Positions 9,935 through 30,471 of a stretch of 64,000 nt of DNA are shown here, one piece after another. The stretch spans positions 1,988,501 through 2,052,500 of the forward strand of contig NZ_AP023243.1 of assembly GCF_016756495.1 (NCBI RefSeq), written 5' to 3'. This DNA comes from Mesorhizobium sp. 113-3-3. GTDB lineage: Bacteria; Pseudomonadota; Alphaproteobacteria; Rhizobiales; Rhizobiaceae. Each line of letters starts with the position of its first letter. Position 1 is the stretch's first letter. The notes under the pieces are model-generated. The model was not told the origin of the DNA. It ran no database searches and saw nothing but the letters and a program-made list of their open reading frames with translations. Made by a program: the position numbers and the translations under genes.

Positions 9935-11371
9935 TCAGCCGATGGCTTCCAGCGGCCGGTTTGGCGCAGCTGACGCCCGCAAGGCGGCGAGGCAGCCGAG
10001 GATGCCGAGGGGCACGAAGGCGAGGAACAGCCAGCTCGCGACATTGGCCGCCGCGTCATGGTTCAGCCCTTGCGAAAAGCCGCTGGCATTGGCGACGATG
10101 CCGGCGAGGGCGGCACCCACGGCATAGCCGATGCGCTGCATGGTCGGCACCGCAGCCGACGCGATGGTCTGCTCATCATCCGGGGCGGAGGCGACGATGA
10201 CGCGGGTCAGGAACGGCCAGGCAATGCCGAAGCCGCCGCCCTGCAGCAGGGCGCAGACCAGGATCAGCGGGATCGAGCCCAGGGGTATCGTATAGGCAAA
10301 GCCGGCGATGCCCGCCGCGATCATCAGCGCACCGACGACAATGATCAGCCGCTCGCGCTGCGGCGGTGCGTTGGCGACGAGGATCGAGAGGATCGACCAG
10401 GCGATCGATTCGGCGGCTATGATGTAGCCGGTGGTCAAAAGCGGAATGTCGTGCAGGCTGGTCAAAAGCAGCGGCCCGTAGACGCCGAAGGAGCAGGTCG
10501 CGACGGAAAAAGCGGCGACCATGGTCATGCCGGCGCCGACCGGCGTGCGCCAGGAGAACAGCCGCGCCGGAAACAGCCGCGAGCGCGGCTTCAGCGCGTC
10601 GATATAGAAGAACAGCGCGAGCCCGGCGAGGCCCAGCACGATCAGCAGCGAAGAGCGCAGCAAGGCGATGTCGACGCCGGCCGAGGCGATCAGCACCACG
10701 GCGACGGCAAGGCAGGCAAGGGCGGCGAAGGGGAAAGGCGGGGCCTTGCCTGCGCTTGTGATGGGTCTCTTCGCCGCCGGCGTGTTCAGGACAAGAAAGC
10801 TTGCCAGCGCCATGGTTGTGCCGCCCAGGGTGAAGACGCCGAAGGCCCAGCGCCAGGACAGGAGTTCGGTCATGATCGCGCCCAGCAACGGGCCGCTGAA
10901 GGCGGCGACGCCCCAGATCGCCGACATGATGCCGAAAAGCTGCGGCCAGATGGCGCGCGAAAACAAACGCTCGACCGAGACGAAGGCGAGCGACACCAGC
11001 GCGCCGCCGCCAAGCCCCTCGATCAGCCGGCCAGCCAGGAACAACTGCATGGAAGGCGAGGTGGCACAGATCAGCGCTCCTGCGGCGTAAAGCAGCGCCG
11101 CGACCACCATATTGGTGCGCAACGCCACATAGCTCACCAGCCGTCCGGCGGCAGCGCCGGCGACGATGGCGCCGAGCTCGTAGATCGCCAGCGACCAGCC
11201 GACGAGCTGCACGCCGGCCAATTCGCCGACCATGGCCGGCATGACGGTCGCCACCATCGTCTCGTTGGTGGCGTGCAGCAGAATGCCGAGGCTGATGAAG
11301 CAGAACCGCGCCAGGTCGCCGCTCGCCCACAATGCGCGCCAGTCGACCCTGTTTGTGCTGATTTCAATCAT
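9935..11371 (-). CDS. MFS drug/metabolite efflux transporter
   Basis: Major facilitator protein of 478 residues with roughly 12-14 membrane helices. The antiporter motif C region GPLLGAIMTE follows helix 4-5, and GRLIEGLGGGALVSL is typical of the DHA2-like drug:H+ antiporters. The ATG at 11371 was chosen because GGGACG lies just upstream and because the longer frame would begin inside the promoter described at 11504-11534. The presence of a SoxR/MerR-type promoter suggests induction by redox-active or toxic compounds. The substrate is unknown. Confidence 0.88.
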   Translation of the reverse strand: MIEISTNRVDWRALWASGDLARFCFISLGILLHATNETMVATVMPAMVGELAGVQLVGWSLAIYELGAIVAGAAAGRLVSYVALRTNMVVAALLYAAGALICATSPSMQLFLAGRLIEGLGGGALVSLAFVSVERLFSRAIWPQLFGIMSAIWGVAAFSGPLLGAIMTELLSWRWAFGVFTLGGTTMALASFLVLNTPAAKRPITSAGKAPPFPFAALACLAVAVVLIASAGVDIALLRSSLLIVLGLAGLALFFYIDALKPRSRLFPARLFSWRTPVGAGMTMVAAFSVATCSFGVYGPLLLTSLHDIPLLTTGYIIAAESIAWSILSILVANAPPQRERLIIVVGALMIAAGIAGFAYTIPLGSIPLILVCALLQGGGFGIAWPFLTRVIVASAPDDEQTIASAAVPTMQRIGYAVGAALAGIVANASGFSQGLNHDAAANVASWLFLAFVPLGILGCLAALRASAAPNRPLEAIG

Positions 11372-17521: not shown

Positions 17522-17833
17522 ATGCTTCTCATCCGCTGCCCCTATTGCGAGGAAGAGCGCCCGGAACTCGAATTCCGCAACGCCGGCGAGGCGCATATTG
17601 CGCGCTCGGCCAACATTGCGGGGGAGAGCGACGACGACTTCGAAAAGTTCTTCTTCATCCGCTCTAACCCCAAGGGCATCATCTATGAGCGTTGGCGGCA
17701 CATGCATGGCTGCGCGCGCTTCTTCAACGCGGTGCGCGATACCGTCACCGACAAGTTCGTCATGACCTACAAGGCCGGCGAACCCCAACCCGCCAAGCTG
17801 CCCAAAAACTCCAACGAAGTGGTTGCCAAATGA
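17522..17833 (+). CDS. soxD: Sarcosine oxidase subunit delta
   Basis: Small zinc-binding subunit of 103 residues. Cys6 and Cys9 (CPYC), with His59 and Cys63 (RHMHGC), are the expected zinc ligands. The segment between includes DFEKFFFIRSNPKG, conserved in SoxD. A longer frame begins upstream, but the ATG at 17522 matches the family N-terminus LIRCPYCEE. The stop overlaps the soxA start by four bases (ATGA). Confidence 0.96.
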   Translation: MLLIRCPYCEEERPELEFRNAGEAHIARSANIAGESDDDFEKFFFIRSNPKGIIYERWRHMHGCARFFNAVRDTVTDKFVMTYKAGEPQPAKLPKNSNEVVAK

Positions 17834-20823
17834 GCGGCGCGTTCCGCATCCCGAGAGCCGGTCGCCTCAGCCAGGCCAGGACCGCGCGGTTCAGCTTCGA
17901 CGGCCAGTCCTATACCGGCATCGAGGGCGACACGCTGGCCTCCGCACTGCTTGCCAATGGCGTGCATCTGGTCGGCCGCTCGTTCAAGTACCACCGGCCA
18001 CGCGGCTTCCTGTCGGCCGGTGCGGAAGAGCCCAACGCGCTGGTGCAGATCGTGCGTGACGATGCGCGCAAAACGCCGAATGTGCGCGCCACCGTGCAGG
18101 AGCTCTATGATGGGCTCGCCGCCAATTCGCAGAACCGCTGGCCGTCTCTGTCCTTCGACGTCGGCGCGGTCAACGACATCGCATCGCCGATGTTCTCGGC
18201 CGGCTTCTACTACAAGACCTTCATGTGGCCGAAGGCGGCCTGGAAGAGCCTTTACGAGCCCAAGATCCGCGAAGCCGCCGGCCTTGGCGTTTCGCCCGAC
18301 AAGCCCGATCCCGACCACTATTCCTCGCGCTACGCGCATTGCGACGTGCTGGTGCTGGGCGGCGGCGCGGCCGGCCTCGCGGCGGCCCTGGCGGCGGCCG
18401 AGACCGGCGTGCGCGTCATCCTCGCCGACGAGCAGGCCGAATTCGGCGGCAGCCTGCGTTTCGAGACGGGTGCGAAGATCGATGGCCAGGACGGTTTCGT
18501 CTGGGCGCAAGCGGCAATCGCAAAGCTCGCCGCCATGGGCAATGTCCGTGTGCTGTCGCGCACAACTGCTTTTGGATATTACGCGCAGAATTTCGTCGGG
18601 CTGGTCGAGCGCGTCAGCGATCATTTGAAGGCTCCCGGGCATGATTTGCCGCGCGAGCGGCTGTGGCAGGTGCGCGCCAAGCGCGTGGTGCTGGCCTCCG
18701 GCGCCATCGAGCGCCATATGGTGTTCGCCAACAATGACCGGCCCGGCATCATGCTGGCGGGCGCGGCGCGCACCTTCCTCAATCATTATGGCGTGGCTGT
18801 CGGCAGGAATGTCGGTGTCTACACCGCCAATGATTCAGCCTATGCGGCTGCGATCGACCTGAAGAAGGCCGGCGTCAACATCGCGGCGATCGTCGATCTG
18901 CGCGACAACCCGACCGGGCCTGTGATCGATGAGGCACGGGCGCTCGGCATCGAGATCAATTTCGGCCGCGCGGTGATCCGCGCCGGCGGCAAATTGCGGG
19001 TATCGTCGATGACCGTGCAGCCGAAAAATGGTGGCGGCGAACGCACCATCGCGGTCGATGCGATCCTGATGTCGGCCGGCTGGACCCCTTCGGTGCATCT
19101 GTTCTCGCAGTCGCGCGGCAAGGTCGCCTTCAACGACGAGACCAAGCGCTTCGTGCCGGGCACCTATGCACAGGACTGCGTTTCGGTCGGCGCCTGCAAC
19201 GGCACGGACGGGCTGGCGGCGACGGTGGACGAAGCCTATGCGGCTGGCGCCAAGGCGGCCAAGGATGCCGGCGCCAAGACCGCCAAGGGTGTGAAGCCGA
19301 AGGTCGATGCATCGGAAAGCTGGTCGCGCGGCATGCTGGGTGCGGCGCCCGGCGCCGGGCCGGACACGACGGTCAAAGCGTTCGTCGATTTCCAGAACGA
19401 CGTCACCGCCAAGGACATCCGCCAGGCGGTGCATGAAGGCATGCGCTCGATCGAGCACGTCAAGCGCTTCACCACCAACGGCATGGCAACCGACCAGGGC
19501 AAGACCTCCAACATGCATGGCCTGGCGATTGCGGCGGAAACGCTGGGCAAGCCGATCCCCGAGGTCGGCCTGACCACCTTCCGCGCGCCCTACACGCCGG
19601 TCACCTTCGGGGCGATCGTCAGCCATGCGCGCGGGCCGCTGTTCGACCCAACGCGCAAGACGGCGACGCATCCCTGGGCCGAAGCGCAGGGTGCTGTGTT
19701 CGAGGATGTCGGGCAGTGGAAGCGCGCCTGGTATTTCCCGAAGGCCGGCGAGGACATGCATGCCGCGGTCGACCGCGAATGCGTCGCGGTCCGCACGACG
19801 GCCGGCCTGTTCGATGCCTCGACGCTCGGCAAGATCGAGGTGGTCGGGCCAGATGCGGCCAAGTTCATGGAGCTGCTCTACACCAATCCGTGGGAGAAGC
19901 TGGAGCCGGGCCGCTGCCGTTACGGCATCATGCTGCGCGAAGACGGCTTCATCTATGATGACGGCGTCGTCGGCAGGCTGGCGCCGGACCGTTTCCATGT
20001 GACGACGACGACGGGCGGCGCGCCGCGCGTCATGAACCACATGGAGGATTATCTCCAGACCGAGTTCCCGCATCTCAATGTCTGGCTGACCTCGATCACC
20101 GAACAGTGGGCTGTTATCGCGGTGCAAGGTCCCAAGTCGCGCGACATCATCGCGCCGCTGGTCGAAGGCATCGACATGTCGGATGAAGCGCTGCCGCATA
20201 TGTCGGTGCGCGAAGGCAAGATCTGCGGCGTGCCGACAAGGCTGTTCCGCATGTCGTTCACCGGCGAGCGCGGCTTTGAGGTCAACGTGCCGGCCGACTA
20301 TGGCCAGGCCGTCTGGGAAGCGCTGTGGGCCGAAGGCCAGAAGCATGGCGCCACCGCCTACGGCACGGAGTCCATGCACGTGCTGCGCGCCGAGAAGGGC
20401 TACATCATCGTCGGCCAGGACACGGACGGCACGGTGACGCCGAACGACGCCGGTCTCGACTGGGCGGTCGGCAAGAAGAAGACCGATTTCGTCGGCATCC
20501 GCGGCATGGCGCGACCGGACCTGGTGGCCAAGGGCCGCAAGCAACTGGTTGGCCTGAAAACCAAGGACCCGAAGGTGGTGCTGGAGGAGGGCGCGCAGAT
20601 CGTCGCGGATCCCAAGCAGGCGATCCCGATGAAGATGATCGGCCATGTCACCTCGAGCTACTGGTCGCAGAATTGCGGCCGTTCGATCGCACTGGCGCTG
20701 GTCGCCGGCGGCCGCGACCGGATGGGCGACACGCTCTACGTGCCGATGCCGGACGGGGTGATCGAAGTGGAGGTTACCGGCATGGTGTTCTTCGACGAGA
20801 CGGGAGGCCGCCTCAATGGCTAA
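17830..20823 (+). CDS. soxA: Sarcosine oxidase subunit alpha
   Basis: Large subunit of 997 residues. The N-terminus has a ferredoxin-like ligand-binding domain (RFSFDGQSYTGIEGDTL). Next comes an NAD-binding Rossmann domain with VLGGGAAGLAAALAAAETG near 175. The C-terminal third (about 610-990) is a folate-binding GcvT/DMGDH-type domain (HPWAEAQGAVFEDVGQWKR, GERGFEVNVP). The layout and length are as in known SoxA. The ATG at 17830 is coupled to soxD; the longer frame is only upstream read-through. It overlaps soxG by eight bases. Confidence 0.96.
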   Translation: MSGAFRIPRAGRLSQARTARFSFDGQSYTGIEGDTLASALLANGVHLVGRSFKYHRPRGFLSAGAEEPNALVQIVRDDARKTPNVRATVQELYDGLAANSQNRWPSLSFDVGAVNDIASPMFSAGFYYKTFMWPKAAWKSLYEPKIREAAGLGVSPDKPDPDHYSSRYAHCDVLVLGGGAAGLAAALAAAETGVRVILADEQAEFGGSLRFETGAKIDGQDGFVWAQAAIAKLAAMGNVRVLSRTTAFGYYAQNFVGLVERVSDHLKAPGHDLPRERLWQVRAKRVVLASGAIERHMVFANNDRPGIMLAGAARTFLNHYGVAVGRNVGVYTANDSAYAAAIDLKKAGVNIAAIVDLRDNPTGPVIDEARALGIEINFGRAVIRAGGKLRVSSMTVQPKNGGGERTIAVDAILMSAGWTPSVHLFSQSRGKVAFNDETKRFVPGTYAQDCVSVGACNGTDGLAATVDEAYAAGAKAAKDAGAKTAKGVKPKVDASESWSRGMLGAAPGAGPDTTVKAFVDFQNDVTAKDIRQAVHEGMRSIEHVKRFTTNGMATDQGKTSNMHGLAIAAETLGKPIPEVGLTTFRAPYTPVTFGAIVSHARGPLFDPTRKTATHPWAEAQGAVFEDVGQWKRAWYFPKAGEDMHAAVDRECVAVRTTAGLFDASTLGKIEVVGPDAAKFMELLYTNPWEKLEPGRCRYGIMLREDGFIYDDGVVGRLAPDRFHVTTTTGGAPRVMNHMEDYLQTEFPHLNVWLTSITEQWAVIAVQGPKSRDIIAPLVEGIDMSDEALPHMSVREGKICGVPTRLFRMSFTGERGFEVNVPADYGQAVWEALWAEGQKHGATAYGTESMHVLRAEKGYIIVGQDTDGTVTPNDAGLDWAVGKKKTDFVGIRGMARPDLVAKGRKQLVGLKTKDPKVVLEEGAQIVADPKQAIPMKMIGHVTSSYWSQNCGRSIALALVAGGRDRMGDTLYVPMPDGVIEVEVTGMVFFDETGGRLNG

Positions 20824-21400
20824 GGCTGCTGCAAAGAAGACGGCTGCGGCCGCATCGCCCTCGGTCGACCGCCGCCCGGCGCTGGCCGGCCGCGCCACAT
20901 CGGCGACCGGCGTGAAGGTTGAAGTGCTGCCGCCGGCCGAGCGCATCTCGCTGCGCGCCCCGGAAGCCTCGGTCGCGGCGCTGTCGAAAGCGCTTGGCCT
21001 GACCTTGCCGAAGAAGCCGAAGACGTCCGCGTCGAAGGGCGGGCGCACCGCTCTGTGGCTCGGCCCCGACGAGTGGCTTGTCATCGACGAGGTAGGCAAC
21101 GATCCGCTTGCCGATAGCGCAGGGGTCACCGCGCTGCATTCGGCGGTCGGCATTTCACACCGTAACATCGCGATCTCCGTCGCCGGTCCGGCGGCCGAAG
21201 CCACGGTCAATTCGGGCTGCCCGCAGGACCTGTCACTCGATGCCTTCCCGGTGGGCGCCGCTTCGCGCACCATCCTCGGCAAGGCCGAGATCGTGCTGTT
21301 GCGCACGGCCGCCGACACGTTCCGGGTCGAATGCTGGCGTTCCTTCTCGGACTATGTCTTTACTTTCCTGTCCGAGGGAGCCCGCGACGCGGCCGGCTGA
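20816..21400 (+). CDS. soxG: Sarcosine oxidase subunit gamma
   Basis: Gamma subunit of 194 residues, related to the GcvT fold, which closes the folate site of the complex. Recognisable segments are ALWLGPDEWLVID, DVSHRN-like VGISHRNIAISVAGP and the C-terminal FRVECWRSFSDYVFTFL. It overlaps soxA by eight bases. Unlike many loci, no glyA, folD or purU follows; the one-carbon genes must lie elsewhere. Confidence 0.94.
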   Translation: MAKAAAKKTAAAASPSVDRRPALAGRATSATGVKVEVLPPAERISLRAPEASVAALSKALGLTLPKKPKTSASKGGRTALWLGPDEWLVIDEVGNDPLADSAGVTALHSAVGISHRNIAISVAGPAAEATVNSGCPQDLSLDAFPVGAASRTILGKAEIVLLRTAADTFRVECWRSFSDYVFTFLSEGARDAAG

Positions 21401-21688
<288 letters not shown>

Positions 21689-21766
21689 TTTCCCGCAATT
21701 TTGGTCGAAAGGCATCTTTCCAAGGCATCGCCAGTTGAGATATTCAAAGCGCTTTGGAGAGGAAAA

Positions 21767-22552
21767 ATGCCGATAAAAGCTGTTGTCTGGGGCGAGAACG
21801 TCCATGAACAGACCAATGCCGCCGTGCGCGACCTCTATCCCTTGACCATGCATGGCACGATCGCGGCCGCGCTCAACCAGGACAAGGGCATCGAGGCGAC
21901 CACCACCACCTTGCAGGAGCCCGAGCACGGCCTGAGCGAGAAGCGCCTGGCCGCCACCGACGTGCTTTTGTGGTGGGGTCACGCCGCGCATGGCGAGGTC
22001 AAGGACGAGATCGTCGAGCGGGTGCAGAAGCGGGTCTGGGAAGGAATGGGGCTGATCGTGCTGCATTCCGGCCACTACTCGAAGATCTTCAAGCGGCTGA
22101 TGGGCACGCCCTGTTCGCTGAAATGGCGCGAGGCGGGCGAGCGCGAGCGCGTCTGGGCGATCAACCGTGGCCACCCGATCGCGCAAGGCATCGGCGAATG
22201 CCTGGAGATCGGCGAGACGGAGATGTATGGCGAGCCGTTCGCGGTGCCGGAGCCGATGGAGACGGTGTTTGTCTCCTGGTATGAGGGCGGCGAGGTGTTC
22301 CGCTCGGGGCTGACCTACCAGCGCGGCGCGGGCCGCATCTTCTATTTCTCGCCCGGCCACGAAACCTATCCGATCTATCACAATGAAGGCGTGCAGCAGG
22401 TGCTGCGCAATGCCGTGCACTGGGCGCACAACCCGGCGCCCGCATGGTCGGGCATCACCAATGCGCCGAACGTGCCGACGGACAAGGCCAAGGAGAAGAT
22501 CGTGCAGAAGGGCCTGCGGCTGCATGCCGACGGCGACAAGGGGTTGAGTTGA
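21767..22552 (+). CDS. ThuA-like domain protein
   Basis: Protein of 261 residues with the ThuA (trehalose utilisation-type) fold, related to class I glutamine amidotransferases but without the catalytic cysteine triad. Segments [41 protein letters not shown] and the late [14 protein letters not shown] are typical. GGAGAGG precedes the ATG. It is followed 16 bases on by a Gfo/Idh/MocA dehydrogenase, the same pair as thuA-thuB. Here there is no linked sugar transporter, so trehalose or another disaccharide is only one possible substrate. Confidence 0.88.
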
Positions 22553-22568
22553 TGGGGGACCTGATCTG

Positions 22569-23618
22569 ATGCATCGCCTGCTCCTGCTCGGCACCGGCTG
22601 GATCGCCGGACATCATATCGAAGAGTTCGCAAAGGTCCCCGGCTGCAGTATCGTCGCCTGTGTCGATCAACTGCCCGGCCGCGCGGCGGCGTTTGCTGCT
22701 GCCAACGAAATCGGTGCTTCTTTCGAGAGCCTTGAAGCGGCGATCGCCTGGGGCGATTTCGACGCCGCCATCAATGCGACCCCGGACGGCGTGCACAAGG
22801 CGACGACGCTGGCGCTGCTTGCCGCAGGAAAACATGTCTTTTGCGAAAAGCCGCTGGCGCCGAACCATGCCGATGCGCTTGCCATGACCGAAGCGGCCGA
22901 GGCCGCCGGCCTCGTCAACATGGTCAATCTCACCTACCGCAATTCACCGGCGATCCAGGAGGCACGGCGTCTGGTGCTGGCGGGCGCGATCGGCGAATTG
23001 CGCCATGTCGAGGCGAGCTACAAGCAGAGCTGGCTGGTCAGCAAGTCCTGGGGTGACTGGCGCGTCGAGGACAAATGGCTGTGGCGCCTGTCGAGCCGGC
23101 ACGGGTCGACCGGCGTGCTGGGCGATGTCGGCATCCACATCCTGGATTTCGCCACCTATGGCGCGGCCCAGGACATTGTCAGCCTGCATGCCGATCTGGT
23201 GACGTTTCCGAAGGCCGAGGGCGACCGGATCGGCGACTATGTGCTCGACGCCAATGACAGTGTGGCAATGACGGCGCGGCTTGCTTCTGGCGCGCTGGGG
23301 ACGATCATGGCGAGCCGCTACACGACCGGCCATGGCAATGACCTGTCGCTGACGCTGCATGGCACCAAGGGAGCGCTCAAGGTCGAGACCGACGGCAAGG
23401 CGGCGCGGCTGTCGGCGTGCCTGGGCGAAGACGTGGATGTCCAGCTCTGGCGAGAGCTGGGCCTGCCGGACGTCAAGCGCAATGCCCGGCGTTTTGTCGA
23501 CGCGCTGGATGCCGGGCAGAACGGCGATCCGTCCTTCCGGCGCGCCGCCGACATGCAGAAGCTGATCGACGCCGCCTTCGAGAGTTCGGCGGCCAGGCTG
23601 CCGGTTACGCTCGGCTGA
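22569..23618 (+). CDS. Gfo/Idh/MocA-family sugar dehydrogenase
   Basis: NAD(P)-dependent oxidoreductase of 349 residues. The Rossmann motif LLGTGWIAGHHIEEF is at the N-terminus. HVFCEKPLAPNHADAL near residue 90 carries the EKP signature lysine. The C-terminal alpha/beta domain begins NMVNLTYRNSPAIQEA. It pairs with the ThuA-like gene just upstream, and the two probably act on the same sugar or cyclitol. The gene ends 9 bases before a hairpin. Confidence 0.9.
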   Translation: MHRLLLLGTGWIAGHHIEEFAKVPGCSIVACVDQLPGRAAAFAAANEIGASFESLEAAIAWGDFDAAINATPDGVHKATTLALLAAGKHVFCEKPLAPNHADALAMTEAAEAAGLVNMVNLTYRNSPAIQEARRLVLAGAIGELRHVEASYKQSWLVSKSWGDWRVEDKWLWRLSSRHGSTGVLGDVGIHILDFATYGAAQDIVSLHADLVTFPKAEGDRIGDYVLDANDSVAMTARLASGALGTIMASRYTTGHGNDLSLTLHGTKGALKVETDGKAARLSACLGEDVDVQLWRELGLPDVKRNARRFVDALDAGQNGDPSFRRAADMQKLIDAAFESSAARLPVTLG

Positions 23619-24105: not shown

Positions 24106-24750
24106 TCAGCAGTTGACCGGTGTGTCGGTCAATGGCGGCACATTCTGCGTGCTGAGTGCGGCCAGTTGGAAATCGCACATGCGTTTCACGAAAGCATGCG
24201 GGTCGCCGAAGGGGTAGAAGGGAAAGGTGATCAGCAGCGAGATCGTGCCGTGGCCGACCGCCCACAGCATCGTGGCGATGGCGCGCGGATCGCCTTGCAG
24301 TTTTCCGGCGGCGACGCAGGCTTCGACCCGCGTGATCAGTGCCTTCATCGCCGGGTTGGCCTCGTGCATTTCTTGAAAACTGCGACCTTCCGGCGGCCGC
24401 GTCTTTTCGGTCATGAAAACGGTGCGGTACTCATTGGGATTGCCGAGGCCGAAGGCGGCATATTCGGTCATCACGGCCTGCAAGGCCTCGATCGGATCGT
24501 CGGACGGATGCTCCTCGATGCGGCGGGCAAGCGTTTCGAAGGCGTCTTCGGCCAGCGCGAAAAGGATGTCCTGTTTGTCGGCGAAGTAGGAATAGACCGA
24601 CATCGGCGCATAGCCGACCCGCTTGGCCAGTTTGCGGATGGTCAGGCCCTCATAGCCTTCTTCCTGGACGAGCTTGTGCGCGGCCGCGACCAGCTCGGAA
24701 CGCAGTTCGGCCTTCTGTTTTTCGCGGCGTTTCTGGACGCTCAGCGGCAA
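24106..24750 (-). CDS. TetR/AcrR-family transcriptional repressor
   Basis: Regulator of about 214 residues. The N-terminal helix-turn-helix is clear: AAHKLVQEEGYEGLTIRKLA, then KRVGYAPMSVYSYFADKQDI. The C-terminal ligand domain ends with an all-helical segment (HGTISLLITFPFYPFG). The open frame reaches 24849, but that part would lie upstream of the apparent promoter at 24797-24824. The TTG at 24750 with GAAAGG upstream is therefore the likely start. It follows the acyl-CoA cluster on the same strand but seems to have its own promoter. Confidence 0.85.
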   Translation of the reverse strand: MPLSVQKRREKQKAELRSELVAAAHKLVQEEGYEGLTIRKLAKRVGYAPMSVYSYFADKQDILFALAEDAFETLARRIEEHPSDDPIEALQAVMTEYAAFGLGNPNEYRTVFMTEKTRPPEGRSFQEMHEANPAMKALITRVEACVAAGKLQGDPRAIATMLWAVGHGTISLLITFPFYPFGDPHAFVKRMCDFQLAALSTQNVPPLTDTPVNC

Positions 24751-24796
24751 GCCCGGTGCCTTTCGGTGGTGTCTGGGGCAGTTGTATCTGGCTAAA

Positions 24797-24824
24797 CTAT
24801 ATACACTGTACGGAAACGGACAAG
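24797..24824 (-). promoter_or_regulatory. tetR promoter with operator-like dyad
   Basis: On the minus strand TTGTCC and TATAGT, 16 bases apart, form a candidate promoter. The spacer contains CCGTACAGTGTATA, whose core TACAGTGTA is a dyad sharing the CGTACA half-site with the sites at 23952-24023. This suggests autoregulation by the TetR protein. Confidence 0.5.
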
Positions 24825-24864
24825 GCCACGGGAAGTTCCCAAACGGCATGGTAGGATCGCGGTG

Positions 24865-25641
24865 TCAGATCGCTCCGACGCCGCCGTCTATGGCCAGCGC
24901 ATGACCGGTCATGAAGGAGTTGGCCGGGTCGGCGGCAAACAGGACGGCGGCGATGATTTCGTCGACTTCCGCCACGCGTTTCATAGGCACGCCGCGTGTC
25001 AGTTCGGTCAACGCCTCCGCCTCCGGCGCACCGGAGGCGCGCACGAAGCTGTCCACCATTGCCGTCCTGGTGTGGGCCGGGCAGACGGCGTTGATGCGCA
25101 CACCCTTGGTTGCATATTCGGCGGCCGCCGATTTGGTCAGCCCGACGACGCCATGCTTGGCGGCGGCATAGACCGAAAGTTTCGGCGCCCCGACCAGTCC
25201 GGCAACCGAGGCGATGTTGACGATGGCGCCGCCCCTGGCCGCAGCCTTGAACTGCCGCTCCATCTGCGGGATCTGGTGCTTCATGGCGTAGAAGACGCCA
25301 AGCAGGTCGATCTCCAGCACGCGGCGGGCCTCATCCGACGGAACCTGCGGCAGGCGCACGAAACTCTGGACGATGCCGGCATTGTTGACGGCGACATCCA
25401 GCCGGCCGAATCTTTCGACCGCCAGCCTGACCAGATCCTCGGACAGTTGCTCGTCCGCCACGTTGCCGGCGAGGATCGCCGTTTCGGCGGGCAAGGTTTC
25501 AGCAAGATCGGCGAGCGCCTTTTCGTCGATGTCCGATAGGACCAGCCGCGCGCCCTCGGCGGCAAAGCCTTTCGCGGCGCCACGGCCGAGGCCGCCGGCG
25601 GCACCCGTGATCAGCACCGTTGCTCCGTCAAAGCGGCCCAT
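24865..25641 (-). CDS. SDR-family dehydrogenase of the acyl-CoA cluster
   Basis: Classical short-chain dehydrogenase of 258 residues: TGAAGGLGRGAAKGFA at the N-terminus, NNAGIV near 89, the Ser in NIASVAGLVGA and the YAAAKHGVVG catalytic Tyr/Lys. It ends SFMTGHALAIDGGVGAI. The start has GGGAG upstream. It lies 12 bases after the APH-fold kinase gene on the same strand, so it is probably cotranscribed. A role in oxidising a hydroxyacyl-CoA intermediate fits the context but is an inference. Confidence 0.88.
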   Translation of the reverse strand: MGRFDGATVLITGAAGGLGRGAAKGFAAEGARLVLSDIDEKALADLAETLPAETAILAGNVADEQLSEDLVRLAVERFGRLDVAVNNAGIVQSFVRLPQVPSDEARRVLEIDLLGVFYAMKHQIPQMERQFKAAARGGAIVNIASVAGLVGAPKLSVYAAAKHGVVGLTKSAAAEYATKGVRINAVCPAHTRTAMVDSFVRASGAPEAEALTELTRGVPMKRVAEVDEIIAAVLFAADPANSFMTGHALAIDGGVGAI

Positions 25642-25653
25642 CCCGTCTCCCCA

Positions 25654-26688
25654 TCAATTCTGCTTTTCGATCAGTCTGGCGGCGAGATGCGAAAGCAGCT
25701 TCACCGCCTCGCCATAGGTCCTGGCCTTCTCGGGATTGGAGGCATTGCCGTCCAGCGCGCGCTTGTAGACACCCTGACAGATCGCCGCCAGGCGGAAGAA
25801 GGAGAAGGCAAGGAAGAAGGTCCAGTTGCCGATGCCGGTGAGTCCGCGCCGCCGGCAATAGGCGGCGACATAGTCTTCTTCCGAGGGCAGGCCGAGCGCG
25901 GCGCGGTCGATGCCGCCCAGGCCGCGAAAGCCCGAGGCATGCGGCAGGCGCCATTGCATGCATTGGTAGGCGATGTCGGCAAAGGGGTGGCCTGATGTCG
26001 ACAACTCCCAGTCGAGCACCGCGATGACCCTTGGCTGGTCCGGCGCGAAGATCAGATTGTCCAGCCGGTAGTCGCCATGCACCAGCGATATCAGGCCGTC
26101 ATCGGCCGGCATGTGCGTTTCCAGCCAGGCGATCAGTTGATCCATGTCGGCAATGGTGCCGGTTTCCGAGGCGCGGTACTGGCTGGTCCAGCGCGCCAGC
26201 TGCCGTTCGAAATAACTGCCCGGCCGACCGAAATCGCCGAGACCCACGGCGTCGACATCGACATCGTGCAGCGCCGCGAGCGTGCCGTTCATGGCGTCAT
26301 AGATGGCGGCGCGCTCGGCATTGTCGCGTGCCTCGGGCAGAACCGGATCCCAGAAGATGCGGCCGTCGAGGAAATCCATTACGTAGAACATGCGGCCGAT
26401 CGGCGAGTCCTCCGCCGACAGATGCAGCATTTTGGGGACCGGCACGGCGGTGCCGGCAAGCGCCTTCATCACGCGGAATTCGCGATCGACCTGATGCGCC
26501 GATTTCAGCAATTGCCCCGGCGGCTTGGCGCGCAGCACGTAACGGCCGCTGGCCGCGGTGATGAGATAGGTCGGGTTGGACTGGCCGGATTTGAATTTTT
26601 CTATCGAAACAAGCCCGGAAAAGCCGGGGATTTCCGCCTCGAGGTAAGGCGCGAGCGCTGCCTGGTCGAGCGCGTTGGGGTCGTTCAT
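25654..26688 (-). CDS. APH-fold kinase, ACAD10/11 N-domain type
   Basis: Aminoglycoside-phosphotransferase-fold protein of 344 residues. It closely resembles the kinase half of animal ACAD10/11 and the bacterial LvaA type, which phosphorylate the 4-hydroxyl of hydroxyacyl-CoA. Seen: GQSNPTYLI loop (35-43), YVLRAKPPG (50-58), KSAHQVDREFRVMKAL (62-77), catalytic HGDYRLDN (204-211, Asp206 and Asn211) and the metal ligand Asp226 in VLDWELS. All kinase residues look intact. It overlaps the MaoC gene by four bases (ATGA). The substrate is inferred, not shown. Confidence 0.88.
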   Translation of the reverse strand: MNDPNALDQAALAPYLEAEIPGFSGLVSIEKFKSGQSNPTYLITAASGRYVLRAKPPGQLLKSAHQVDREFRVMKALAGTAVPVPKMLHLSAEDSPIGRMFYVMDFLDGRIFWDPVLPEARDNAERAAIYDAMNGTLAALHDVDVDAVGLGDFGRPGSYFERQLARWTSQYRASETGTIADMDQLIAWLETHMPADDGLISLVHGDYRLDNLIFAPDQPRVIAVLDWELSTSGHPFADIAYQCMQWRLPHASGFRGLGGIDRAALGLPSEEDYVAAYCRRRGLTGIGNWTFFLAFSFFRLAAICQGVYKRALDGNASNPEKARTYGEAVKLLSHLAARLIEKQN

Positions 26689-27170
26689 GCGGTCTCGGGC
26701 TGGCGTTCGATCAGCGTCAGCGTCAGCCAGCGGGCGGTCAGCGCCGGTTTCTTCGAGCCCTCGATCTCGATCGTCACGTCGTGCGCCGTCTGCACCCAGC
26801 CCGATGGTCTCACCTTGACGTCGGCCAGCACGAAACGAGTGCGGATGCGCGCGCCGGTCTTCACCGGCGCCAGGAAACGCAGCGAATCGAAGCCGTGGTT
26901 GACGCCCATCTTGCCGTTTTCCAGCGGCGGCATGGTCTCGAACGTCATTGCCGAGAGCAGCGACAGCGACAGGAAGCCATGCGCGATGGTGCCGCCGAAC
27001 GGCGTCTCGCGCTTGGCCCGCTCGGGGTCGCAGTGGATGAACTGGTGGTCGTCGGTGGCGTCGGCGAACTGGTCGATCATGCGCTGCGTCACCACCCGCC
27101 ACGGCGACACGCCAACTTCCTTGCCGACACTGGCCAGAAGCACATCGAGACTGATCGGTTCCACGCTCAT
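26685..27170 (-). CDS. MaoC-like enoyl-CoA hydratase
   Basis: Hot-dog-fold hydratase of 161 residues. The (R)-specific hydratase motif is present: the DATDDHQFIH Asp/His dyad, then PFGGTIAHGFLSLSLL. It probably hydrates or dehydrates an enoyl/3-hydroxyacyl-CoA. It lies between an SDR (39 bases upstream) and the kinase (4-base overlap), so the three proteins probably act on the same acyl-CoA chain. Confidence 0.9.
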   Translation of the reverse strand: MSVEPISLDVLLASVGKEVGVSPWRVVTQRMIDQFADATDDHQFIHCDPERAKRETPFGGTIAHGFLSLSLLSAMTFETMPPLENGKMGVNHGFDSLRFLAPVKTGARIRTRFVLADVKVRPSGWVQTAHDVTIEIEGSKKPALTARWLTLTLIERQPETA

Positions 27171-27209
27171 GTCCTCCAGTTCACCTCCGGCTTCTACGGC
27201 CGGAAAATG

Positions 27210-28025
27210 TCATTCCTTGAATAAGGTCAATCCATGCTGCACCGACTGCCCGCCGTCGATCGGCAGGATGGCGCCGGTGACATAGCTGCCCGCACGGCTG
27301 CACAAATAGAGCGTTGCGCCGGCAATGTCATCCGGTGCGCCGATACGGCCGATCGGAACATGGCCGCCGACATGCCTGGCCTGCTCATCCGTACCGGTGG
27401 CAAAGGCCGTCATGCGGCTCTGGAAAGGGCCGGGGGCAAAGGCGTTGACGGTGATGCGGCGGGCCGCGAATTCGAGCGCGAGCGTGCGGGTCAGATGGTG
27501 AACCGCGGCCTTGGACGCGGTGTAGGAATAGGCGTCGTCGGCCAGCGGCTGCGTGCCCATCACCGAACCCAGATTGATCACCCGGGCCGGATCGGCGTCG
27601 CTGGCGGCGGCTTCGAGCAGCGGCAGCAATTCGCGGGTCAGGTGGAAGACGGCGGTGACATTGACGCCAAGCACCTTGGCCCATGCCGAATAGGGAAAAC
27701 TCTCGAGCGGCGCGCCCCAGGAAACGCCGGCATTGTTGATCAGGATATCGAGTTTGCCGGTCCGCGCCTTGACCTCGGCGACGAGTGCGGCGATGCCAGC
27801 CTCGCTGGAGACGTCGCCGGCGAAGCCCTCGGCGCGGCCCGGGGCGCCGAACGCGTTCAATTCATTGGCGACCTTGACGCAGTCCTCGCCCTTGCGCGAC
27901 GCGATCATGACGCTGGCGCCGGCCTTGACCAGCGCTGTCGCCGCCATGCGGCCGATGCCGGTCGCCGCGCCCGTCACCAGCGCGGTCTTGCCGGCCACCG
28001 AAAACAGCTCGTCCAGATAGGCCAT
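27210..28025 (-). CDS. SDR-family oxidoreductase, first gene of minus-strand acyl-CoA operon
   Basis: Classical SDR of 271 residues: TGAATGIGRMAATALV near the N-terminus, NNAGVSWGAP, the Ser in NLGSVMGTQPLADDAYSY and the YTASKAAVHHL catalytic Tyr/Lys, ending YVTGAILPIDGG. A strong GGAGG precedes the ATG. It is the promoter-proximal gene of the minus-strand set SDR-MaoC-kinase-SDR and diverges from the acyl-CoA dehydrogenase. A 3-hydroxyacyl-CoA dehydrogenase-like role is plausible. Confidence 0.88.
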   Translation of the reverse strand: MAYLDELFSVAGKTALVTGAATGIGRMAATALVKAGASVMIASRKGEDCVKVANELNAFGAPGRAEGFAGDVSSEAGIAALVAEVKARTGKLDILINNAGVSWGAPLESFPYSAWAKVLGVNVTAVFHLTRELLPLLEAAASDADPARVINLGSVMGTQPLADDAYSYTASKAAVHHLTRTLALEFAARRITVNAFAPGPFQSRMTAFATGTDEQARHVGGHVPIGRIGAPDDIAGATLYLCSRAGSYVTGAILPIDGGQSVQHGLTLFKE

Positions 28026-28039
28026 TCCGATCCTCCGCG

Positions 28040-28056
28040 CTTTGCCCTGGGCAAAG
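28040..28056. promoter_or_regulatory. Dyad in the divergent acyl-CoA promoter region
   Basis: CTTTGCCC-T-GGGCAAAG is a perfect 8+8 dyad around one base, in the 114-base gap between the divergent SDR and acyl-CoA dehydrogenase genes. A TTGACA hexamer lies nine bases further on (28065-28070), though its -10 partner is weak. A repressor bound at the dyad could control both directions. Confidence 0.5.
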
Positions 28057-28139
28057 AGTTCGCGTTGACAAGGCTATCCGAAGTACGGTCATCCTTGCCA
28101 CGGGTAAATTGCCGGGCCTCTATGAAGGGTTAGCGACCG

Positions 28140-29381
28140 ATGACGGAGATGAATCTCGGCATGACCGAGCGGCTGAAGCCGATCCACGCGCGCGTCGCGG
28201 CCATGGTGCGCGACGAGATCATGCCGCTCGACAAGGAATTCTTGGGCGAGGTGGGCAAGGCGGGCGACCGCTGGATCTACACGGCGCGGCAAACCGAGAT
28301 CCTCGAAGGGTTGAAGAAGACGGCACGAGAGCGCGGCCTGTGGAACTTCTGGCTGACCGGCTCGGAACGCGGCTATGGCCTCTCCACCGTCGAATATGCC
28401 TATCTCGCCGAAGAGATGGGCAAGGCGCATCTCGGCGCCGAAACCTTCAATTGCTCGGCGCCCGACACCGGCAATATGGAGGTGCTGGAGCGCTACGGCT
28501 CGGCCGACCACAAGAAGGCGTGGCTGGAGCCGCTTCTAGATGGAAAAATCCGCTCGGCCTATCTGATGACCGAGCCTGATGTCGCCTCGTCCGACGCCAC
28601 CAACATTGCGATGCGCTGCGAGCGGCAGGGCGACGACTATGTGCTCAACGGCGAGAAATGGTGGGCCTCTGGCGCTGGCGACCCGCGCTGCGCCATCTAC
28701 ATCGTCATGGTGCGGACCGGCGGCGACGACGAGCCGCAGCACCGCCGCCATTCGATGATCCTGGTGCCCGCGGACACCAAGGGCGCGACCAAGGTCCGCG
28801 CCATGCAGGTCTATGGCGACGATGACGCGCCGCATGGCCATATGCACCTGCGCTTCGACAATGTCAGGGTCCCGGCAACAAACCTGATCCTCGGCGAGGG
28901 CAGGGGCTTCGAGATCGCGCAAGGGCGGCTCGGCCCCGGCCGCATCCATCACTGCATGCGCGCCATCGGCCAGGCCGAGATGGCGCTGGAGATGCTGTGC
29001 CAGCGTTCGGTGCGCCGCGAGGCCTTCGGCCAGAAGCTGGCGAAACTCGGCGCCAATTTCGACATCATCGCCGAATGCCGCATGGAGATCGAGATGGCGC
29101 GGCTGCTCTGCCTCAAGGCGGCCTGGATGATCGACCAGGGCGATGCGCGCGCCGCTGCCCCCTGGATCAGCCAGATCAAGGTCATCGCGCCGCGTGTCGC
29201 GCTGAGGATCACCGACGAGGCGGTGCAGATGTTCGGCGCGCAAGGCATCAGCCAGGACACGCCGCTGGCGCGGTCGTGGACGCATCTGAGGACATTGCGC
29301 CTCGCCGATGGGCCCGACGCCGTGCATCGCCGGCAGGTGGCGCGGACGGAGCTGAAGAAGTACACGCAGGAGAAGCTCTGA
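28140..29381 (+). CDS. Acyl-CoA dehydrogenase, ACAD10/11 (LvaC) type
   Basis: FAD-dependent acyl-CoA dehydrogenase of 413 residues. The motifs YLMTEPDVASSDATN (141-155), NGEKWWASGAGDPRC (170-184) and GRGFEIAQGRLGPGRIHHCM are those of the ACAD10/11 branch, rather than of ordinary short- or medium-chain enzymes. In that branch the enzyme removes phosphate from a 4-phosphoacyl-CoA made by the APH-fold partner. The partner is encoded 1.5 kb away on the other strand. The divergent arrangement suggests shared control. Confidence 0.9.
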   Translation: MTEMNLGMTERLKPIHARVAAMVRDEIMPLDKEFLGEVGKAGDRWIYTARQTEILEGLKKTARERGLWNFWLTGSERGYGLSTVEYAYLAEEMGKAHLGAETFNCSAPDTGNMEVLERYGSADHKKAWLEPLLDGKIRSAYLMTEPDVASSDATNIAMRCERQGDDYVLNGEKWWASGAGDPRCAIYIVMVRTGGDDEPQHRRHSMILVPADTKGATKVRAMQVYGDDDAPHGHMHLRFDNVRVPATNLILGEGRGFEIAQGRLGPGRIHHCMRAIGQAEMALEMLCQRSVRREAFGQKLAKLGANFDIIAECRMEIEMARLLCLKAAWMIDQGDARAAAPWISQIKVIAPRVALRITDEAVQMFGAQGISQDTPLARSWTHLRTLRLADGPDAVHRRQVARTELKKYTQEKL

Positions 29382-29433
29382 GCGGCGGCCGCTGCACCAC
29401 GGGCCTTCTGTCAACAACCAAGGAGTGTCACCG

Positions 29434-30471
29434 ATGACCATTCCCTCCGAAATGAAGGCGTTGCTCCTGGTCGGCGACGGCTACACCAAGACGCCGAGCG
29501 GCAGTGCGCTAGAGGCGATGGAGCCGTATCTCGTGCCGGGCATCATCGCGGTGCCGGCGCCCGGACCGAGCCAGGTGCTGATCAAGGTCAGCCTGGCTTC
29601 GATCAACCCCTCCGATGTCGCCTTCATCAAGGGCCAGTACGGCCAGCCGCGCGTCAAGGGCCGGCCGGCCGGCTTCGAGGGCGTCGGCACGATTGTCGCC
29701 GGCGGCGACGAGCCCTATGCCAAAAGCCTTGTCGGCAAGCGCGTCGCCTTCGCCACCGGGCTCAGCAACTGGGGCTCGTGGGCTGAATATGCCGTTGCCG
29801 AAGCGGCGGCCTGCATTCCGCTGCTCGACACGGTGCGCGACGAAGACGGCGCGGCGATGATCGTCAATCCGATCACCGCGATCGCCATGTTCGACATCGT
29901 CAAGCAGGAGGGCGAAAAGGCCTTCATCATGACCGCCGGCGCCAGCCAGCTCGGCAAGCTGATCATCGGCTTGGCCAAGGAGGAAGGGTTCCGGCCTATC
30001 GTCACCGTGCGCCGCGATGAGCAGATCGCGCCGCTGAAGGAGATCGGCGCTGCCCATGTGCTCAACGAGAAGGCGCCGGATTTCGAGGCCACGCTGCGCG
30101 AGGTCATGAAGGCGGAACAGCCGCGCATCTTCCTCGATGCGGTCACCGGGCCGCTGGCTTCGGCCATCTTCAGCGCGATGCCGAAACGGGCGCGCTGGAT
30201 CATCTACGGCAAGCTCGACCCGGACGCCACCATCATCCGCGAGCCTGGCCAGCTGATCTTCCAGCACAAGCACATAGAGGGTTTCTGGCTGAGCGAATGG
30301 ATGCGGCAATTCAAGGATCGCCGGGGTCCGGCTATCCTGGAAGCGCAGAGGCGTTTTTCCGACGGGCGCTGGTCGACCGATGTGACGGCCGTCGTGCCGC
30401 TTGCCGAGGCCATCGCGCGGGTGCCGGCCGAACTCGCCAAGCCCAACGGCAAGGTTTTCATCCGGCCTTGA
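29434..30471 (+). CDS. Zinc-binding-type (MDR) alcohol dehydrogenase / quinone reductase
   Basis: Medium-chain dehydrogenase/reductase of 345 residues. The N-terminal GroES-like domain has the VLIKVSLASINPSDVAFIKG segment and GRPAGFEGVGTIVAGG. The Rossmann part shows MTAGASQLGKLIIGLAKEEG. Catalytic zinc cysteines are not evident, so it probably acts as a quinone oxidoreductase or enoyl reductase type. The ATG at 29434 has AAGGAG eight bases before it; an in-frame GTG nine bases earlier would overlap that site. It follows the acyl-CoA dehydrogenase by 52 bases. Confidence 0.85.
   Translation: MTIPSEMKALLLVGDGYTKTPSGSALEAMEPYLVPGIIAVPAPGPSQVLIKVSLASINPSDVAFIKGQYGQPRVKGRPAGFEGVGTIVAGGDEPYAKSLVGKRVAFATGLSNWGSWAEYAVAEAAACIPLLDTVRDEDGAAMIVNPITAIAMFDIVKQEGEKAFIMTAGASQLGKLIIGLAKEEGFRPIVTVRRDEQIAPLKEIGAAHVLNEKAPDFEATLREVMKAEQPRIFLDAVTGPLASAIFSAMPKRARWIIYGKLDPDATIIREPGQLIFQHKHIEGFWLSEWMRQFKDRRGPAILEAQRRFSDGRWSTDVTAVVPLAEAIARVPAELAKPNGKVFIRP

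Follow-up and report, generated by a model that had tools for sequence, protein, structure and literature searches.

In the described ACAD10/11 and levulinate (Lva) systems, a 4-hydroxyacyl-coenzyme A (CoA) is phosphorylated by ATP to a 4-phosphoacyl-CoA, from which a flavoenzyme removes the phosphate to give a 2-enoyl-CoA, with no net redox change (PMC11342911, PMC12440821). A split bacterial pair was reported to convert 4-hydroxyhexanoyl-CoA into hexenoyl-CoA in vitro (PMC11342911), and lvaABCD homologues are described from many Alpha-, Beta- and Gammaproteobacteria (PMC6692424). Here, we analyze a locus in a 64,000-nucleotide stretch of the 7.7-Mb genome of Mesorhizobium sp. 113-3-3 (contig NZ_AP023243.1, positions 1988501-2052500; the whole stretch is referred to as the window, and its coordinates are used for all genes), at which an APH-fold kinase and an acyl-CoA dehydrogenase-like protein are encoded in one small cluster. 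Judging from sequence comparisons, we predict, with a probability of roughly 0.87, that both proteins form an ACAD10/11-type pair running the two core steps, i.e., phosphorylation by the kinase and then phosphate elimination. The pathway and its split form are already known; the gene set and an operator-like site represent a new arrangement around this known core. Our search, which covered part of the literature, found no report on ACAD11, 4-hydroxyacyl-CoA or levulinate in rhizobia, including Mesorhizobium.

Both halves of mammalian ACAD11 and ACAD10 are homologous to the Mesorhizobium proteins over nearly their whole length, with the same catalytic and phosphate-binding residues, but they are fused in mammals, whereas here they are encoded by two separate, divergently transcribed genes. 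In addition, ACAD10 has a HAD domain and the Mesorhizobium pair has none, and linked MaoC, short-chain dehydrogenase (SDR) and MDR genes are found only here. According to its published description (PMC6692424, PMC11342911), the Pseudomonas putida Lva system likewise comprises a separate kinase, an LvaC-type dehydrogenase and an SDR, with the same predicted chemistry; in contrast to that system, the Mesorhizobium cluster contains neither an LvaB-like gene nor a ligase and adds MaoC, MDR and a TetR regulator. The window kinase is 44% identical to ACAD11 (44.2% to the mouse kinase), whereas the LvaA described in PMC11342911 is reported to be 29% identical to ACAD10/11. A split Burkholderia pair is similar in having separate genes; it includes a closer, ACAD10-like kinase and is reported to replace the ACAD10 domains in vitro (PMC11342911).

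The dehydrogenase matched most strongly, among solved structures, the "putative acyl-CoA dehydrogenase" 4hr3 (E = 4.1e-122) and the ACAD11 structures 8v3u (7.1e-121), 8v3v (3.5e-120) and 2wbi (6.4e-119), whereas the best ordinary enzyme, a medium-chain acyl-CoA dehydrogenase, reached only 5e-41. We take 8v3u and 8v3v to be the mouse ACAD11 protein described in PMC12440821. In that description, R626, H634 and R637 (HCMR helix), together with the catalytic D753, handle the phosphoacyl-CoA, and the first three of these residues are stated not to be found in conventional dehydrogenases (PMC12440821). Their counterparts in the window protein, located in GRLGPGRIHHCMR and ADGPD, are Arg263, His271, Arg274 and Asp390, respectively. 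Both the HCMR motif and the catalytic aspartate were missing from 7/7 ordinary dehydrogenases aligned (one from L029 and six from this genome, which has seven other matches; L008 was left out), in which the Asp position is occupied by Glu, Gly or Ala. We also built a tree of 63 rows by a quick method, without 4hr3, LvaC and ACAD10, in which support was given by the SH-like approximate likelihood ratio test (SH-aLRT) only and several long branches were flagged. In this tree, the window dehydrogenase and mouse ACAD11 fell in one 36-row group (SH-aLRT 99), which was joined next by the diverged Mesorhizobium type described below (44 rows, SH-aLRT 100), with the ordinary enzymes included falling outside. 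Tree, motif and structure matches thus rule out an ordinary acyl-CoA dehydrogenase; a grouping with ordinary enzymes was the outcome that the earlier note on this DNA had held to speak against its reading, and the protein groups with ACAD11 instead. We predict it to be a 4-phosphoacyl-CoA phosphate-eliminating enzyme that would need no electron acceptor.

Likewise, the kinase matched the solved structure 3dxp (4e-113) and the ACAD11 kinase domain (2.7e-82). Equivalents of mouse ACAD11 D220, N225 and R176 were kept in 41/41 rows of a kinase alignment, mouse and window counted (the alignment did not include the short L036 frame). The corresponding window residues comprise the catalytic Asp206, Asn211 and the CoA-contacting R162; R69 lies beside the alpha-C Glu, at a position that is mouse 84 by our count and printed as R86 in the paper. 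HND replaced HGD in 5/41 kinases, whose 30-33% identity to ACAD11 is the basis on which we take them as a putative LvaA-like set; compared with these five, the kinase of the window more closely resembles the animal ACAD11 domain. An aminoglycoside kinase was ruled out, as the APH(3') model scored 40 bits, far under its cut-off of 205. We predict the protein to be a 4-hydroxyacyl-CoA 4-kinase. The motifs KSAHQVDREFRV, HGDYRLDN, TEPDVASSDATN and GRLGPGRIHHCM, quoted in the earlier note for the two proteins, are present in the translations, and both reading frames lie where that note had placed them.

The two genes also occur together. In a phylum survey of 299 genomes (kinase at E ≤1e-20, dehydrogenase at E ≤1e-60), in which the best 6 or 7 candidates per genome were scored so that copy numbers are lower bounds, we found the kinase in 87 genomes and the dehydrogenase in 90; all 87 kinase genomes also held the dehydrogenase, and the dehydrogenase stood alone in 3 (Fisher 1e-72, a value that ignores relatedness). 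Of the kinase places, whose number is itself a lower bound, 68/113 lay within 15 kb of a dehydrogenase. The co-occurrence survey proposed earlier came out at 87/87, and the view that both genes are ACAD10/11-like is borne out by the structure matches, the published active-site residues, the tree and this co-occurrence. Within Mesorhizobium, a dehydrogenase of at least 89% identity was found in 92/119 genomes, and the same 92 carry a kinase of at least 79% identity; among them, the dehydrogenase match ends at a contig end in G007 and is in two pieces in G081. Among the best 120 of 7999 matches for each protein, the named closest relatives of kinase and dehydrogenase are, with few exceptions, Mesorhizobium proteins, listed under the generic names "phosphotransferase" and "acyl-CoA dehydrogenase".

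Gene content was inspected in 24 of the 91 other main-type genomes, which we sampled across the range of identities, leaving the other 67 aside. Counting matches above 50% identity, TetR, kinase, MaoC, SDR2, dehydrogenase and MDR were present in 24/24 of these relatives, and SDR1 in 21/24. Outside the genus, the tree sub-branch of the window dehydrogenase includes 12 non-Mesorhizobium genomes, five of which (dehydrogenase 67-76% identical; G230, G183, G249, G175 and G122) have no kinase within 15 kb of that dehydrogenase. In one genome of another family of the same class (G343), the order is identical, i.e., dehydrogenase followed, across the divergent region, by SDR2, MaoC, kinase and SDR1; behind these come a FadB-like gene, whose product combines an enoyl-CoA hydratase with a 3-hydroxyacyl-CoA dehydrogenase domain, and then genes for two acyl-CoA dehydrogenases and one enoyl-CoA hydratase. 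Other relatives' loci that we compared hold the pair alone or with other partners, with AMP-ligase-like genes, recognized by motif only, near some of them.

All six genes named in the earlier note, including the MaoC hydratase, the two SDRs and the MDR gene around the pair, are open reading frames at the positions given in the table, with family searches agreeing. They form two divergent transcription units: a minus-strand unit in the order SDR2, MaoC, kinase, SDR1 and TetR (gaps of 39, -4, 12 and 15 bp) and a plus-strand unit of dehydrogenase and MDR (43 bp between them). The TetR gene adjoins the minus-strand unit downstream, just outside the 24865-30471 interval; neither this gene nor the palindrome described below was listed in the earlier note. 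The kinase ATG sits within a longer open reading frame (25654-27102). The SDR family models matched were PF00106/PF13561.

Table. Features of the locus in window coordinates, with the match or description for each.
Feature	Position	Strand	Match or description
TetR-family regulator	24106-24849	-	PF00440 2.2e-12, PF13305 1.6e-14; last gene of minus-strand operon
SDR1, short-chain dehydrogenase	24865-25641	-	PF13561 1.9e-55
APH-fold kinase	25654-26688	-	PF01636 8.7e-53
MaoC-like hydratase	26685-27170	-	PF01575 1.3e-23
SDR2, RhlG-like short-chain reductase	27210-28025	-	RhlG 2b4q 1.4e-67
Divergent promoter region between both units	28026-28139	.	114 bp, from sequence
Palindromic operator-like site	28070-28096	.	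AAGG-n4-CCG-n5-CGG-n4-CCTT
ACAD10/11/LvaC-type flavoenzyme (dehydrogenase)	28140-29381	+	PF00441/PF02770/PF02771; ACAD11 7.1e-121
MDR-family enoyl/enone reductase-like protein	29425-30471	+	PF08240/PF00107; 3pi7 7.6e-221

The partner enzymes allow a tentative route to be drawn around the pair. MaoC was closest, among solved structures, to Rv0130 (2c2i, 6.7e-33), an (R)-hydratase-type enzyme, and we predict it to be an Rv0130-type, (R)-specific 2-enoyl-CoA hydratase. The solved matches of SDR1 were unspecific, a (3R)-hydroxyacyl-CoA dehydrogenase (2et6, 4.8e-41) being among them; in an SDR tree, a group of ten rows (97) united SDR1 with SDRs that are encoded, in four other families, at most 2.6 kb from a kinase or dehydrogenase of this type. 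SDR1 may be a (3R)-hydroxyacyl-CoA dehydrogenase or a 4-hydroxyacyl dehydrogenase. SDR2 may act either at the LvaD step, as a 4-oxoacyl-CoA reductase, or as a 3-oxoacyl reductase. The MDR protein matched 3pi7 ("NADH oxidoreductase", as tabulated), 3iup (2.9e-28) and a mitochondrial 2-enoyl thioester reductase (4.6e-23); it is enoyl/enone reductase-like, with an uncertain role.

Taken as a whole, the cluster, probably under TetR control, would feed 4-hydroxy acids, and probably also 4-oxo acids, into beta-oxidation by ACAD10/11-Lva chemistry. In an LvaD-like first step, SDR2 might reduce the oxo group of a 4-oxoacyl-CoA and so provide the 4-hydroxyacyl-CoA; the kinase would then phosphorylate the 4-hydroxyl, and the flavoenzyme would eliminate the phosphate to yield the 2-enoyl-CoA. 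The flavin adenine dinucleotide (FAD) of this enzyme would take part transiently, and no external electron acceptor would be required. Subsequently, MaoC might hydrate this product to the (R)-3-hydroxyacyl-CoA, and SDR1 might oxidize the latter to the 3-oxoacyl-CoA. We regard the whole route from 4-hydroxy or 4-oxo acids, as drawn here, as an even bet. The linked genes span at most the section from a 4-oxo- or 4-hydroxyacyl-CoA to a 3-oxoacyl-CoA, with ligase and thiolase elsewhere in the genome. The "complete route" of the earlier note was thus too strong a term: its ACAD10/11 pair stands, but the window holds neither ligase nor thiolase, and the SDR and MDR roles are inferred.

Several observations weigh against the route and, in part, against a levulinate-like function. 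The genome has 18 AMP-binding (ligase-type) and 8 thiolase-type places, all of them outside the window. The absence of a linked ligase had been pointed out earlier and is confirmed; as a serious gap, however, it does not hold, because a P. putida lvaE mutant is reported to be still able to grow on levulinate (PMC6692424). The cluster gaps (39, 12, 15, 114 and 43 bp) include none large enough for an LvaB-like gene (12 kDa), and PF19802, which we take to be the LvaB-like family, had no match anywhere in the genome; LvaB is described as required in P. putida (PMC6692424). The window kinase is of the HGD and not of the HND type, and its substrate range may therefore differ from levulinate. Furthermore, SDR1 is absent from 3/24 relatives, so that its step would be either dispensable or done elsewhere. 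Finally, SDR2 fell outside the SDR-tree group that holds SDRs near HND-type kinases (LvaD itself was not in this tree), which makes an LvaD-like role a guess; as a candidate LvaD, SDR2 receives no support from the SDR tree.

An ACAD10/11-type pair need not imply a simple 4-hydroxy fatty acid as natural substrate, and we give a different substrate somewhat less than an even chance. Examples would be gamma-lactone-derived, branched, aromatic-side-chain or terpenoid 4-hydroxyacyl-CoAs, in which case MDR and SDR2 would modify the substrate before the pair acts on it. The position of the window dehydrogenase in a distinct sub-branch (16 rows, SH-aLRT 100), its 49.5% identity to mouse ACAD11 compared with up to 58% in other bacterial members, and the presence of MDR and SDR2 in all 24 relatives inspected are consistent with this idea; the active-site motif, however, is unaltered, and no neighbor recognized by eye (sarcosine oxidase-, ThuA- or glycosyltransferase-like) points to another substrate.

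A more far-reaching scenario, which we think unlikely as a whole, would make the cluster a self-contained bacterial counterpart of mammalian peroxisomal ACAD11 plus MFE-2, split into single genes. Here, MDR would reduce the C=C bond of a 4-oxo-2-enoyl (oxidized-lipid) substrate and SDR2 would then reduce its 4-oxo group, after which the 4-hydroxyl would leave as phosphate through the action of kinase and dehydrogenase; the (R)-3-hydroxy branch of beta-oxidation would fall to MaoC and SDR1. The substrate would induce the genes via TetR at one dedicated operator, the cell would burn peroxidized plant or membrane lipids, and the function would be kept across most of the genus, with a distantly related pair having taken over in one or two Mesorhizobium lineages.

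That the cluster runs in the reverse, biosynthetic direction, in which it would build or reduce acyl chains and the kinase pair would be a side path, appears improbable to us. In favor of such a direction, RhlG is the closest match of SDR2, and enoyl thioester reductases come next after 3pi7 and 3iup among the matches of MDR, but 0/7 cluster genes encode an acyl carrier protein, ketosynthase or acyltransferase, phosphorylation plus elimination is a removal reaction, and the cluster of G343 has linked FadB-like and dehydrogenase genes. A chance neighborhood, in which the acyl-CoA dehydrogenase would be an ordinary one and the kinase would be unrelated to it and act on small molecules or antibiotics, and to which the generic database names and the weak 40-bit APH(3') match might be taken to point, is contradicted by tree, residue tables, structure matches and the 87/87 co-occurrence, and has a negligible chance of being right.

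The TetR protein is likely the repressor of the cluster, and its true start is probably some 30 codons further in. In the 20/24 relatives whose intergenic region is <260 bp (the other 4 lie outside the alignment), the divergent promoter contains a strongly kept block that includes the palindrome. The palindrome is perfect in 19/24 relatives and imperfect in L025, L026, L082, L088 and L091; across 96 loci compared, several of them second copies from one genome, it was perfect in 32. In the 7.7-Mb genome, the perfect form occurs at one place, i.e., the tabulated one. Allowing one mismatch added six places, one within the MDR gene (30313-30339) and five elsewhere, and a reversed control pattern at ≤1 mismatch gave 1 place compared with these 7; with two mismatches, searched in the window only, 3 matches were obtained versus 0.44 expected. 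The genome-wide search, meant as a route to a co-regulated ligase, covered the sites themselves, and such a ligase may still lie beside one of the five outside places. A dyad before both arms, together with a TetR gene ending one arm, fits autoregulated repression, with the palindrome as the putative TetR-binding site.

The Mesorhizobium genomes that lack the main pair are not all devoid of such genes. In 16/119 genomes, a diverged pair is found instead, with a dehydrogenase 35-39% identical to that of the window and a kinase beside it on the same contig. Six such loci were examined (L020, L021, L022, L023, L024 and L037, from G088, G077, G016, G098, G091 and G094, respectively); their dehydrogenases retain THCMR as well as the catalytic aspartate, and their kinases read HGDFRLGN. 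The surroundings of L022 include a beta-keto acid cleavage enzyme (BKACE) and a 3-hydroxyacyl-CoA dehydrogenase, and those of L021 a transporter, an aldo-keto reductase and a 2-oxoglutarate oxygenase. Overall, the 119 genomes comprise 92 with the main pair, 16 with the diverged pair, 0 with both intact and 11 with neither (Fisher 4.8e-13); these 11 include G013, with further ACAD10/11-type copies (51-54%), G014, with part of a kinase (92%), and G044, with kinase pieces. However, the Fisher value overstates mutual exclusion, because the diverged pair needs just two changes on a housekeeping DNA tree built from one gene (ClpX-like, named by eye) in 30/119 genomes. This suggests that the diverged pair belongs to one or two lineages, and it may stem from one replacement event. 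In one genome of the main type (G029), a diverged-type pair is present as well (L032, on G029:C2); its dehydrogenase frame is broken by a stop.

If the prediction is right, the Mesorhizobium proteins recorded as "acyl-CoA dehydrogenase" and "phosphotransferase" could be renamed phosphate-eliminating flavoenzyme and 4-hydroxyacyl-CoA kinase, respectively, and growth phenotypes would be predicted for them. With the two activities on separate proteins, either half of the ACAD10/11 reaction is easily purified by itself, and the extra partners (MaoC, SDRs and MDR), together with the single operator-like site, would offer a handle on natural 4-hydroxy acids in soil and root habitats.

The cluster is flanked by sarcosine-oxidase-like and glycosyltransferase-like genes (flank names by eye). 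The preceding region (17692-23618) holds genes resembling the sarcosine oxidase alpha and gamma subunits, and then ThuA-like and Gfo/Idh-like genes, all identified by eye; the latter two were found in 14/24 relatives inspected. L025 (G005) carries two additional genes, a TetR gene (8001-8768 of that locus) that lies between SDR2 and the dehydrogenase, and one of MDR type (10080-11078) behind the dehydrogenase; L026 (G054) has a gene of similar size behind the dehydrogenase (the family scan covered L025 proteins only). In L058, L060, L063, L064 and L068, histidine-phosphatase-like, thioesterase-like or regulator-like genes (by eye) lie near the kinase. An ACAD10/11-type dehydrogenase was also found on 155 plasmid records, each <60% identical to that of the window, including records from Rhodococcus, Sulfitobacter, Sphingobium and Deinococcus.

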